A stretch of DNA of 64,000 nucleotides from Clostridiaceae bacterium JG1575 (lineage in GTDB: Bacteria; Bacillota; Clostridia; Clostridiales; Clostridiaceae). Where the stretch lies: contig LQGW01000037.1 of the NCBI GenBank assembly GCA_002838815.1, positions 114,754-178,753 on the forward strand, given 5' to 3'. Positions 5,578 through 44,893 of this stretch are shown in pieces. The position numbers were made by a program, and so were the translations under genes. Below the pieces are notes generated by a model that saw only the letters and a list, made by a program, of their open reading frames with translations, made no database searches and had not been told where the DNA came from. The first letter of the stretch is position 1; the number at the start of each line of letters is the position of its first letter.

Positions 5578-5582
5578 CGGCA

Positions 5583-5624
5583 AAAAAGAGCTCTTCGGCC
5601 TTACGTGCGAAGAGCTCTTTTTTA
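5583..5624. terminator. Bidirectional terminator between PpiC and aminotransferase
   Basis: The AAAAAAGAGCTCTTCG/CGAAGAGCTCTTTTTT arms form a near-perfect symmetrical hairpin usable by both converging genes. Confidence 0.88.
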
Positions 5625-10921: not shown

Positions 10922-10958
10922 CGGGCAGGGCACGCCCTTTTGCGTGCCCTGCCCGTTT
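10922..10958. terminator. Hairpin between YvrJ and the converging selenoprotein gene
   Basis: A perfect 14-bp stem CGGGCAGGGCACGC/GCGTGCCCTGCCCG has a 6-nt loop and is followed by only TTT on the plus strand. It is probably the shared transcription end of two convergent genes. Confidence 0.6.
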
Positions 10959-34403: not shown

Positions 34404-34439
34404 GGAAGGCATGCCATGGTTGTGGCATGCCTTCCTTTA
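34404..34439 (+). terminator. Terminator after flavodiiron gene
   Basis: The perfect 12-bp stem GGAAGGCATGCC/GGCATGCCTTCC has an 8-nt loop and is followed by TTT. Confidence 0.75.
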
Positions 34440-41619: not shown

Positions 41620-42135
41620 TTACAAAGGACCGATAAGGACGGGTTTTTGTTGCTGTAAGCTTAGCTCAACGTCTAAAACCCGTTGATTCATGCTGCCGCA
41701 AAAGGGGAGGGAGAGGTTTTTTTCTTCCAGAAGAAAGCGGCCGTCCACCAAGACATCGCAAAGGCTTAAAAGCGCTCTCTTTTCTGGATCCTGCAAAAGC
41801 TCTTCGAAGGTGTAGCCCGACCAGACCCAAACGTCTCGCTGGAGCCCCTGCTCTTCCCAATGGTCGCGCAGGCGGCGCAGCAGGGGCAATAACCCTTCGG
41901 TGTTTTGAAAGGGCTCTCCGCCCAAAAGACTCAGGCCAGTGATCAGGGGCGCGTCCAGCGCGGCAACGAGTGCTTGCTCGAGCTTTGAGGACCAGGGGGT
42001 TCCGTAAGAAAAATCCTGGAAAATATCGTTAAAGCACCCCGGGCAGGCGTGGCGGCACCCCGAGACAAAGAGGCTCACACGGATGCCCGGGCCGTTGGCC
42101 ACGTCCAGGGGACGCATCAGGGCTTGGCGCATCAT
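41620..42135 (-). CDS. nrdG: Anaerobic ribonucleotide reductase activase
   Basis: The 171-aa radical SAM protein has the CxxxCxxC cluster motif SGCRHACPGCFN near residue 27 and GLSLLGGEPF for SAM binding. It generates the glycyl radical on NrdD using SAM and a reduced flavodoxin or ferredoxin. Its start overlaps the nrdD stop by 4 bases (ATGA type), so they form a coupled operon. Confidence 0.94.
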   Translation of the reverse strand: MMRQALMRPLDVANGPGIRVSLFVSGCRHACPGCFNDIFQDFSYGTPWSSKLEQALVAALDAPLITGLSLLGGEPFQNTEGLLPLLRRLRDHWEEQGLQRDVWVWSGYTFEELLQDPEKRALLSLCDVLVDGRFLLEEKNLSLPFCGSMNQRVLDVELSLQQQKPVLIGPL

Positions 42136-44285
42136 ATGTGGAGAACCCGGGCCTCAATTTCCTTAGTCCGCCCCTCATTCCAGAAGTTTTCTCCAAGATA
42201 GCCGCAGGTTCTGCGGACCACGGTGAGGTGTTGGCGGCTGTGGTTGCCGCACTGCGGACACTCCCACTGACCGTCTTCGTTGACCCGAATTTCTCCATCG
42301 TAGCCGCATTCATGACAATAATCGGAACGGGTATTGAATTCCGCATACATGATGTTGTCGTAGATGAAGCGGATGAGGGTGAGAAGTGCGGGAACGTTTT
42401 GATTCATATTGGGAATTTCCACATAGCTGATCATGCCGCCGGTGGAGCGTTCCTGGAACTTTTGCTCGAAACGGAATTTTGAGAACACATCAATGGGCTC
42501 CCGAACATCCACATGGTAGCTGTTCGTATAATATCCTTTGTCCGTAACGTTCTCGATGCTGCCAAAGCGGGCAAAATCCAAGGAACAAAAGCGGTGGGTC
42601 AGCGATTCGGCGGGAGTTCCGTAAACAGCGAACTGCACTTTTTCCGCTTCGGTCCATTCTTCTTTTTTCGCATTGAGCACCTCCATGATGCGCATGGCAA
42701 ACGCTTCACCTTCGGGCGTGGTATGGGATTTTCCGGTAATTAAAAGGGAGGCTTCGTAAATGCCAATGTAGCCCATGGTCAGCGTGGAATAGCCGTTGTG
42801 GAGGTATTTTTTGATGGATTCTCCGGGAGCGAGGCGTGCAATGGCGCCGTGCTGCCAATGGATGGGCGAGACATCGCTTGTTACTTTTTCCAGGCGTTCA
42901 TGACGAACCATGAGCGCTTTTTTCATCAGCTCCAAGCGTTTCTCCAAAAGCTGGAAGAATTGTGACTCATCTCCCTTGGAGAGGATGGCGATTTGGGGCA
43001 AATTGATGGTGACGACGCCTTGGTTGAACCGTCCGTCAAAGCGGTATGCGCCCGTCTCATCCGTCCAAGCGGGGAGGAACGCGCGGCAGCCCATGGGACT
43101 AAAGACATTGCCTTCGTAGAGTTGCTTCATTTTCTTTGCGCTGATGTAGTCTGGGTACATGCGCCGGGCTGAGCATTTGGCGGCGAGCTCCGTCAGGTAA
43201 TAATAGGGGGCATCGGGGTGGATGTTGTGTTCATCCAAAACATAGATCAATTTTGGGAAGGCTGGGGTGACGTGGATTCCGGCGGCGTTCTTGATGCCTG
43301 TGATGCGCTGATTGAGGATCTCCTCGGTGATGAGGGCCGCCTCTTTAGCCAAGGAATCCTTCGGGTCCAAATACAAAAATAGAGTCACAAAGGGGCTTTG
43401 CCCATTGGTGGTCATCAAGGTGTTGATCTGGTATTGGATGGTCTGCACGCCGTCTTTGACTTCCTTTTTGGTGCGCTGCCAGGCAATCTTCTCTGCCGCA
43501 ACGAGATCGGGTTCGGTCAAGTGGTAAACCTCGCGCTGCTCCTCCAAAACTTGCTTTAAGTATTTTTCATAAGACTTTCGGACGTAGGGGGCCAAGATAC
43601 GGTCCAAGCCGTTGATGCTCTGGCCGCCAAATTGACTGGAGGCGACCTGGGCAATGATCTGCGTCGTGACGGTGCAGGCCACCTGGAACGAGCGGGGTTC
43701 ATCGATCATTTTGCCGTTGATCATCGTCCCGTTTTTCAGCATGTCCGCCAGGTTAATGAGGCAACAGTTGAACATGGGCTGAATCATATAATCCAGGTCA
43801 TGGACGTGGATGGCACCGGTTTCATGGGCTTCCAACACATCCGTGGGCAAAATCAAGCGCTTAGCGATGTCCTTGGAGACCTCACCGGCGATCAAATCGC
43901 GCTGCGTGGCGATGACCCGGGCATTTTTGTTGGAGTTTTCATCCATGAGCTCGGCATTGGTAGCATTCAAAAGGCTTTCAATGACGGAGTCCGTGGTGTT
44001 GGTACGACGCTTGTAAGCCTGAACGGCTTTATAGTTTTCATAGGCTCGGGCCGTCTGTGCATTGCCGGCTTCCACCAGGGCATAATATACGAGATCTTCG
44101 ATTTGATAGACGGAGAGGGTCTCTTTGCCTAAGGAGTGTACGGATTCTTCGATTTCTTCCGCAATCCGACGGGCTTGTCCTGGAACAAAGAGTCCCTGGG
44201 GAGAATTCATGGCAAGTTCAATCGCCCTTGAGATTTTTTCCGGTCTAAATTCAGTTATTTGACCATTTCGTTTGATCACCTGCAT
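42132..44285 (-). CDS. nrdD: Anaerobic ribonucleoside-triphosphate reductase
   Basis: The 717-aa class III reductase has an N-terminal ATP-cone (MQVIKRNGQITEFRPEKISRAI), the catalytic barrel, a C-terminal zinc ribbon (CHECGYDG and CPQCGN) and the glycyl-radical motif RRTCGYLGENFWNEG, radical Gly about residue 695. It makes dNTPs without oxygen. The ATG at 44285 is preceded by AAAAGGAGAGG. A structured RNA with its own promoter and terminator lies upstream, so expression may depend on readthrough. Confidence 0.95.
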   Translation of the reverse strand: MQVIKRNGQITEFRPEKISRAIELAMNSPQGLFVPGQARRIAEEIEESVHSLGKETLSVYQIEDLVYYALVEAGNAQTARAYENYKAVQAYKRRTNTTDSVIESLLNATNAELMDENSNKNARVIATQRDLIAGEVSKDIAKRLILPTDVLEAHETGAIHVHDLDYMIQPMFNCCLINLADMLKNGTMINGKMIDEPRSFQVACTVTTQIIAQVASSQFGGQSINGLDRILAPYVRKSYEKYLKQVLEEQREVYHLTEPDLVAAEKIAWQRTKKEVKDGVQTIQYQINTLMTTNGQSPFVTLFLYLDPKDSLAKEAALITEEILNQRITGIKNAAGIHVTPAFPKLIYVLDEHNIHPDAPYYYLTELAAKCSARRMYPDYISAKKMKQLYEGNVFSPMGCRAFLPAWTDETGAYRFDGRFNQGVVTINLPQIAILSKGDESQFFQLLEKRLELMKKALMVRHERLEKVTSDVSPIHWQHGAIARLAPGESIKKYLHNGYSTLTMGYIGIYEASLLITGKSHTTPEGEAFAMRIMEVLNAKKEEWTEAEKVQFAVYGTPAESLTHRFCSLDFARFGSIENVTDKGYYTNSYHVDVREPIDVFSKFRFEQKFQERSTGGMISYVEIPNMNQNVPALLTLIRFIYDNIMYAEFNTRSDYCHECGYDGEIRVNEDGQWECPQCGNHSRQHLTVVRRTCGYLGENFWNEGRTKEIEARVLHI

Positions 44286-44371
44286 GATATTTATCCTCTC
44301 CTTTTCGTGGTTCGAGACCCCGCAGGGGATCCCTTCAAAACGTCTAAATACAATGTTATAAAAATATCGAT

Positions 44372-44396
44372 AAAAAAAGCCCGCCAAGAGCTGGCG
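44372..44396 (-). terminator. Terminator in nrdD leader
   Basis: Minus strand CGCCA-GCTCT-TGGCG is followed by GGC and seven T, 87 nt before the nrdD start codon. Confidence 0.75.
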
Positions 44397-44545
44397 AAGT
44401 CCGTCTGCGTATGTTCCTGGGCTCAGTACTTTTCGGCTCCAGGCGACTTTGTTGCGGAAAAGGCCGCAACAAACCCACCCCTATTTAGCCCATGAATGCG
44501 AGGCACAGATCAAAGATTCAACAGCCGATAGGTCCTTCTTAAATC
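44372..44545 (-). ncRNA. Candidate structured RNA upstream of nrdD (leader or small RNA)
   Basis: A strong minus-strand promoter (44580-44552) and a terminator (44396-44372) bound about 170 nt with no ORF. Visible pairings: a perfect 10-bp hairpin TTTGTTGCGG/CCGCAACAAA (44473-44448) with a 6-nt loop; TTCATGGGC with GCCCAGGAA (one A-G mismatch) enclosing it; an alternative CCTGG/CCAGG; and TCTG/CAGA outside. It may be a riboswitch controlling nrdDG or an independent small RNA. No known family was recognised. Confidence 0.5.
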
Positions 44546-44551
44546 AACCTA

Positions 44552-44580
44552 AGTATAGCAGTTTAGAATTATGGTGACAA
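44552..44580 (-). promoter_or_regulatory. Promoter of the nrdD leader RNA
   Basis: Minus strand: TTGTCA (44580-44575), 17 bp, TATACT (44557-44552), with an extended TGC before the -10. Confidence 0.75.
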
Positions 44581-44893
44581 CATGTAGCGGATCAAAAAGA
44601 TTATTTCACAAGATGTTGTTGTTTTGGGAAGGGGGCCCAGCGGGGCTGGTGCGTTTTCTTAAGGGATGGTCCGATAAAAAGAGATTCTTTTTATGGGAAG
44701 CAAGAGAACTCTTCGTCATTATATAGCCCAGAGTTTTAAAAGGGTAGGCGCCGTCAAGTCCATAAAAAGGGCTCTGAGAAGAGGAGAAGGCCATAGCCTC
44801 CGATTTCTAGAACGATTGCCGTTTTTACCCGGTGGGGGTGATTTGCTACAATAAAAAAAAGGCTCCTTTGGAAGAGCCGATGGGAGGCAGCCG
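44581..44893. other. Intergenic, no gene; promoter of the desulfhydrase-like gene
   Basis: A plus-strand extended -10, TGC-TACAAT, lies near 44850 and a small GGCTC/GAGCC hairpin sits in the leader before 44894. Nothing else is supported. Confidence 0.45.

Follow-up and report, generated by a model that had tools for sequence, protein, structure and literature searches.

The window (the whole stretch of DNA that was analysed, 64,000 nucleotides from Clostridiaceae bacterium JG1575) carries on its minus strand the genes nrdD and nrdG, preceded by an intergenic region of 608 nt that holds a promoter, a putative leader RNA and a terminator. The product of nrdD is a class III ribonucleotide reductase, an oxygen-sensitive enzyme making DNA precursors; NrdR is the usual repressor of such genes. 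In the direction of transcription, the features are as follows, with the boxes, the promoter and the terminator observed as sequence matches:

44606-44621, minus strand: NrdR box 1, CAACAACATCTTGTGA; 11.0 bits with the first matrix, the top single match in the 64-kb window
44575-44590, minus strand: NrdR box 2, CCGCTACATGTTGTCA; 5.9 bits alone with the first matrix and 2.0 with the second, covering the -35 hexamer
44552-44580, minus strand: promoter with -35 TTGTCA, a 17-bp spacer and an extended -10 TATACT (TG before the -10); 10/12 matches
44372-44545, minus strand: putative leader RNA of about 173 nt, matching no known family (no Rfam match above cut-off)
44372-44398, minus strand: intrinsic terminator, stem 44398-44380, then C and T7 (44378-44372)
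44295-44304, minus strand: nrdD ribosome binding site, AAAGGAGAGG, read from the sequence
42132-44285, minus strand: nrdD, class III ribonucleotide reductase, 717 aa, ATG at 44285 (NF006732, 926 bits; TIGR02487, 542 bits)
41620-42135, minus strand: nrdG, activase (TIGR02491, 153 bits), sharing 4 bases with the end of nrdD

A sequence-only reading of this DNA had placed promoter, RNA and terminator ahead of nrdD on the minus strand, and both the placement and its coordinates were right. From the end of the terminator to the nrdD start codon there are 86 nt, and about 260 nt, including the terminator, separate the inferred start site from nrdD. Two further hairpins lie nearby. One, at 44314-44333, can be seen by eye downstream of the terminator and ahead of the nrdD ribosome binding site; it is rich in GC, has a single bulged base and is without a T run. 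On the minus strand at 44861-44878, a terminator-like hairpin with T8 is located directly upstream of a plus-strand D-cysteine-desulfhydrase-like (dcyD-like) gene; no evident minus-strand gene ends at that point.

The promoter and its NrdR boxes

The near-consensus promoter of the sequence-only reading was borne out as an extended -10 promoter at 44580-44552, from which transcription would be expected to start near 44545. Over a 1.5-kb region, both strands together contained four promoter-like sites, compared with 1.5 +/- 1.1 in shuffled sequences. A second minus-strand site (44595-44568, 9/12 matches) overlaps the main promoter. From the terminator to nrdD, the minus-strand scan at a threshold of at least 9/12 matches gave no promoter-like site; a weaker promoter may lie downstream of the terminator.

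The two NrdR boxes were absent from the sequence-only reading, and box 1 lies beyond its coordinates. We scored them with two matrices. The first comprises 83 sites located upstream of the gene in 43 of the best 80 nrdD loci, themselves taken from at least 563 confirmed loci. The second comprises the best 45 of 79 nrdD loci with box pairs 30-33 bp apart, one locus (L053) being left out of this set because it is without upstream sequence. Box 1 and box 2 are offset by 31 bp, with a spacer of 15 bp, and reach a pair score of 15.1 with the second matrix, compared with 4.2 for the next pair in the 64-kb window at offsets of 30-33. The pair stays the best in the window at offsets of 20-59, where the best listed pair without box 1 scores 6.9. 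In simulations, no sequence reached a score of 15.1, whether among 40 of 64 kb (maximum 13.2) or among 2000 of 608 nt. In both boxes the conserved C is followed by the conserved G nine bases on; in box 1 they occupy positions 4 and 13. Conserved GC pairs of NrdR boxes are described in an excerpt of PMC9110341, whose positions for S. coelicolor nrdRJ match both the nine-base distance and the offset of 31 bp. The usual spacer between boxes is 15-16 bp according to an excerpt of PMC12051234.

Set against the comparison loci, the pair scores low: the best 45 loci all reach at least 26.6, box 2 is weak alone, and among the 56 of 79 loci with a pair score of at least 15 the candidate would rank near the bottom. 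The offsets of 30, 31, 32 and 33 in the 45 best loci, a range fixed by construction, occur 9, 12, 13 and 11 times. Because they are evenly spread, the argument for a preferred spacing rests on the papers. Downstream of the terminator, the best box-like sequence scores only 0.4 bits with the first matrix, and the upstream flanks of nrdJ (1158 nt) and nrdA (780 nt) in the same genome contain no comparable box pair. The genome has an NrdR gene (TIGR00244, 177.2 bits against a cut-off of 124.65), which adjoins ftsZ (448 bits). Judged from these sequence matches, the promoter is most likely an NrdR-type nrdDG promoter.

Folding of the RNA and its terminator

Three elements within the RNA are needed to describe its folding:

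44515-44545, minus strand: predicted 5' hairpin of 7 bp, segment 1 GATTTAA (44545-44539) with TTGAATC (44521-44515)
44517-44526, minus strand: segment 2, a possible antiterminator strand, pairing with the terminator 5' arm 44398-44389 at 9/10 positions
44448-44473, minus strand: apical perfect hairpin of 10 bp with a 6-nt loop, to which the predicted fold adds flanking pairs

The 10-bp perfect hairpin that had been read from the sequence is present at 44448-44473. Counting perfect hairpins with a stem of 10 bp or more and a loop of 3-10, we found six in the window and 0-2 in each of six Markov simulations; further long ones are found at 5582-5623 (16 bp), 10922-10955 (14 bp) and 34404-34435 (13 bp). 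The several nested pairings proposed around the hairpin fared less well, the whole RNA folding no better than chance. Its minimum energy is -59.2 kcal/mol (z -1.62, equalled by 14/200 shuffles), and a repeat with 500 shuffles gave z -1.51 with 6.6% equal or better. As background we took 160 stretches (80 places in the window, each on both strands, with 30 shuffles per stretch), of which 16% had z <= -1.6. With such values common in the background, the RNA as a whole folds in an ordinary way. The one exception is its apical 61 nt, with z at -5.0 and 0/500 shuffles as good, but this piece was picked after the hairpin was seen. The statement that about 170 nt are without an open reading frame is nearly right, but GTG frames of 27 codons (44506-44423) and 40 codons (44478-44356, crossing the terminator) exist on the leader strand, both with no Shine-Dalgarno visible ahead.

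The terminator with seven T was confirmed at 44398-44372. Terminator-like sites in the 1.5-kb region numbered six, compared with 1.8 +/- 1.4. When the terminator was forced, the RNA folded, including the 5' hairpin, at -56.4 kcal/mol, compared with -59.2 kcal/mol for the minimum-energy fold; the computed energies of the two folds are near-equal. The minimum-energy fold contains the pairing of segment 2 with the terminator arm, for which pairing probabilities are 0.84-0.96, and segment 2 shares bases with the 3' strand of the 5' hairpin. The predicted probability of the terminator was 0.62-0.93 with 0-120 nt of upstream context (0.93 with 120 nt), 0.03 for the full leader, and 0.93 again once the first 27 nt were removed. 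By itself, a low terminator probability is common among shuffled leaders: values no higher than the observed one occurred in 18% of 400, and values of 0.05 or less in 120/500. Shuffles that were low in full and at least 0.9 after removal of 27 nt were rarer (7/500), which we treat as a hint since this test was designed after the fold was seen. In the comparison loci, with 400 nt upstream examined, a terminator-like site lies between the best box pair and the gene in 4/79 loci, and in 2/56 of those with a pair score of at least 15. The layout is therefore uncommon, not unique.

Known RNA families, relatives and the origin of nrdDG

At gathering thresholds, Rfam found only a tRNA in the whole window. 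Permissive runs on 701, 201 and 174 bases produced no row near a family cut-off on the candidate. The top rows were Arrc14 (21.1 bits, cut-off 99), ivy-DE (16.6, cut-off 41.4) and isrK (14.3, cut-off 50), which we take as chance because they are far below their cut-offs and the first two vary with the stretch given. The cobalamin riboswitch (RF00174) gave no row on the candidate, neither at the gathering threshold nor at E <= 10. These scans agree with the sequence-only reading, which had seen no match when comparing the RNA with the B12, THF, preQ1 and 2'-dG classes. No Rfam family scored above its cut-off on the candidate, so a match that would speak against a new RNA is absent.

6S RNA (RF00013) was suspected because the Rfam model matches 53/58 relatives at E <= 0.1 and nothing in this genome even at E <= 10, and because a rod-like fold is predicted for the candidate. 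At least two 6S matches are present in many of the relatives. We built a lineage 6S model from 16 of 20 relatives' 6S loci, dropping L135 for its long insert and L127, L130 and L138 only to limit the size of the set. It recovered the genome's own 6S RNA, missed by RF00013, at G000:C51:69963-70142 (L146, 100 bits), elsewhere in the genome. The model gave strong matches in 5/6 genomes given, one of which (G002) also contributed to the model. Three genomes (G001, G007 and G019) show no Rfam 6S match at E <= 0.1, yet score 79-111 bits with the lineage model. On the candidate, RF00013 gave no row at E <= 10 and the lineage model, with filters off, at most 1.2 bits in 44300-44650. The candidate shares its size and rod-like predicted fold with 6S RNA, but by eye the blocks conserved in the 6S alignment of the family are absent from it, and it scores about 0 bits with the lineage model. 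With a 6S gene elsewhere and at most 1.2 bits at the candidate, it is not this lineage's usual 6S RNA.

Relatives of the leader were searched for with blastn in 58 relatives, 206 family genomes and 391 class genomes, where the window's own copy was the only full-length match. Among the 58 relatives, 15 genomes (own included) match at E <= 1, the non-own matches covering 16-35 nt. The family genomes added three other genomes with 22-33 nt (E 0.003-0.008), and the class genomes gave the own genome only at E <= 0.001. Phages and plasmids yielded pieces of about 30 nt only (E 0.2-0.6), and the exact hairpin pattern had no match in viral contigs. A one-sequence covariance model (R3), run on the window, the best 80 nrdD loci and those of genome G054, found its source and three rows of 10-15 bits; in the 206 family genomes, at E <= 0.1 with stricter filters, it found its source only. 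The partial blastn and R3 matches are taken as chance. The nearest nrdD upstream regions (ten read, thirteen folded, eight in both) bore no resemblance to the leader, and blastn of the leader against the nrdD loci gave no match longer than 19 nt apart from the window's own copies. The 608-nt intergenic region compared with the sequence upstream of the dcyD-like gene in a genome of the same genus (G002) gave matches of at most 16 nt. As no homologue was found, there is nothing to compare for covariation; the missing homologues are an absence of data, not evidence against structure. The leader is a single-genome candidate.

In three other nrdD leaders, those of Aedoeadaptatus pacaensis (L028), A. 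ivorii (L034) and Peptoniphilus nemausensis (L036), we observed a short strong 5' hairpin with a sequence varying by species. This hairpin could be conserved with compensating changes.

Close nrdD genes (E <= 1e-100) were found in 2/58 genomes, own included, and the best named ones among the matches listed are from Khoudiadiopia (73%), Aedoeadaptatus and Veillonella. The same-genus genome G002 keeps in order murB, the dcyD-like gene and a gene that we take to be rapZ. A small gene after the dcyD-like gene has no family match in either genome, and the two copies look alike by eye. At the position of nrdDG, G002 has two MFS transporter genes, with an ISLre2-type transposase before rapZ. The simplest explanation for nrdDG in the window is therefore that it is an acquired block; the leader's arrival together with it is a guess.

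Possible control of nrdDG and its precedents

The sequence-only reading had offered a choice between a riboswitch for nrdDG and a free small RNA. Of the two, the cis side, a 5' leader of nrdDG, is favoured over the free RNA by the NrdR boxes found at the RNA's promoter. Given an NrdR-type promoter and no other minus-strand promoter-like site before nrdD at the scan threshold, the nrdDG leader is the best interpretation of the RNA, in which case nrdDG expression would require passing the terminator. Overall, we consider that the stretch is probably the regulatory head of nrdDG and the RNA an attenuator leader. What the sequence features suggest is a candidate attenuator or orphan riboswitch rather than a free small RNA.

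The attenuator reading could work as follows. NrdR loaded with dATP and ATP would occupy both boxes and block the promoter, as the boxes and published NrdR work suggest. Transcripts that do start would give a leader of about 173 nt stopping at the intrinsic terminator, and nrdDG would be expressed only from read-through transcripts. The off fold would combine the 5' hairpin with the terminator, and in the on fold the 5' segment would pair with the terminator arm, the two folds being mutually exclusive. A ligand, a protein or translation favouring one fold would then set the level of read-through. NrdR binding, transcription of the leader, conditional termination and what is sensed are the parts that we infer. 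If true, the enzyme would be controlled at two successive steps, at the promoter and then at termination.

A simpler arrangement is a fixed partial terminator, where the leader senses nothing and lowers nrdDG expression, with the short RNA as a by-product. The ordinary folding energy of the whole RNA and the lack of any relative found fit this explanation, and by the simple measures above (18% of 400 and 24% of 500 shuffles) the switch-like pairing could be chance. On the other hand, the strong apical hairpin and the three-segment arrangement (7/500) would then both be accidents, although both were picked post hoc. We regard a fixed terminator as unlikely. It is possible but rather doubtful that the leader is the first known member of a new riboswitch class, controlling termination in nrdDG downstream of NrdR and represented by one sequence; it would perhaps sense a deoxynucleotide or a corrinoid, or some other signal that tells which reductase is in use.

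The compact unit of promoter, RNA and terminator is also what a free small RNA would look like, with nrdD transcribed from a weak promoter of its own (possible -10 TATAAC at 44360-44355). This is quite improbable, considering that the RNA's promoter carries the NrdR-like boxes, that nothing box-like past the terminator scores above 0.4 bits, and that no promoter-like site lies there at the scan threshold. Attenuation by a leader peptide would require a ribosome on the frame TTG AAT CTT TGA (44521-44510), behind AAGAAGGA (44540-44533), to pick the fold. As read from the sequence, the Shine-Dalgarno-like run is 11 nt before the frame and the frame overlaps segment 2, but it has three codons, a TTG start and no codon run indicating an amino acid, and we judge such a frame easily found by chance, so that this mechanism seems very unlikely. 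A second or divergent 6S RNA, or another known RNA, is largely refuted and retains hardly any probability: a length of about 173 nt, a rod-like minimum-energy fold, the relatives with at least two 6S matches and the failure of the plain Rfam model to find any in this genome speak for it, but the 6S gene at 100 bits lies elsewhere, 44300-44650 scores at most 1.2 bits, and no Rfam match on the candidate reaches a family cut-off.

Ribonucleotide reductase genes are under NrdR control at the promoter, and in some bacteria they have cobalamin riboswitch leaders. Beside NrdDG, the genome encodes a B12-dependent class II NrdJ (NF005122, 1193 bits; TIGR02504, 559 bits) and a class I NrdA (NF009028, 1474 bits), behind which an NrdB frame (Pfam Ribonuc_red_sm, 157 bits) is cut by the locus end. 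NrdJ and NrdAB (L166 and L167) thus bring three ribonucleotide reductase classes into one genome. As class I, II and III enzymes are all encoded, choosing between them would make sense. Among the open-access papers listed on reductase riboswitches and attenuation, titles and abstract openings named no non-cobalamin leader of nrdDG. If the attenuator reading is true, a non-cobalamin leader on an NrdR-controlled nrdDG would be a second sensor in the choice among class I, II and III enzymes.

For the promoter, the closest likeness comes from systems described in excerpts of PMC12051234. In Listeria monocytogenes nrdDG, a box pair likewise lies on the promoter, over the polymerase site, with a spacer of 16 bp compared with 15 bp here. 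In Streptococcus pneumoniae nrdDG, box 2 includes the -35, as in the candidate promoter; unlike the candidate, that locus has 25 bp between its boxes, which is unusual, and the ATG follows box 2 by 53 bp. The candidate boxes, as putative NrdR sites, are weaker than those of the best comparison loci.

For the layout as a whole, the nearest precedent that we found, by analogy, is nrdAB and nrdDG of Propionibacterium acnes, as presented in excerpts of PMC3848588. The P. acnes nrdDG box pair is far downstream of the active promoter, whereas here it is on the leader's promoter, and the P. acnes leaders are annotated with cobalamin riboswitches, whereas the candidate leader has no match to the cobalamin model. 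According to the same excerpts, P. acnes has nrdRJ, nrdAB and nrdDG, the 5' UTRs of nrdAB and nrdDG are annotated with cobalamin riboswitches, and much of the nrdAB transcription appears to stop ahead of the gene. What the two systems appear to have in common is a 5' leader before reductase genes in a genome that also has a class II enzyme.
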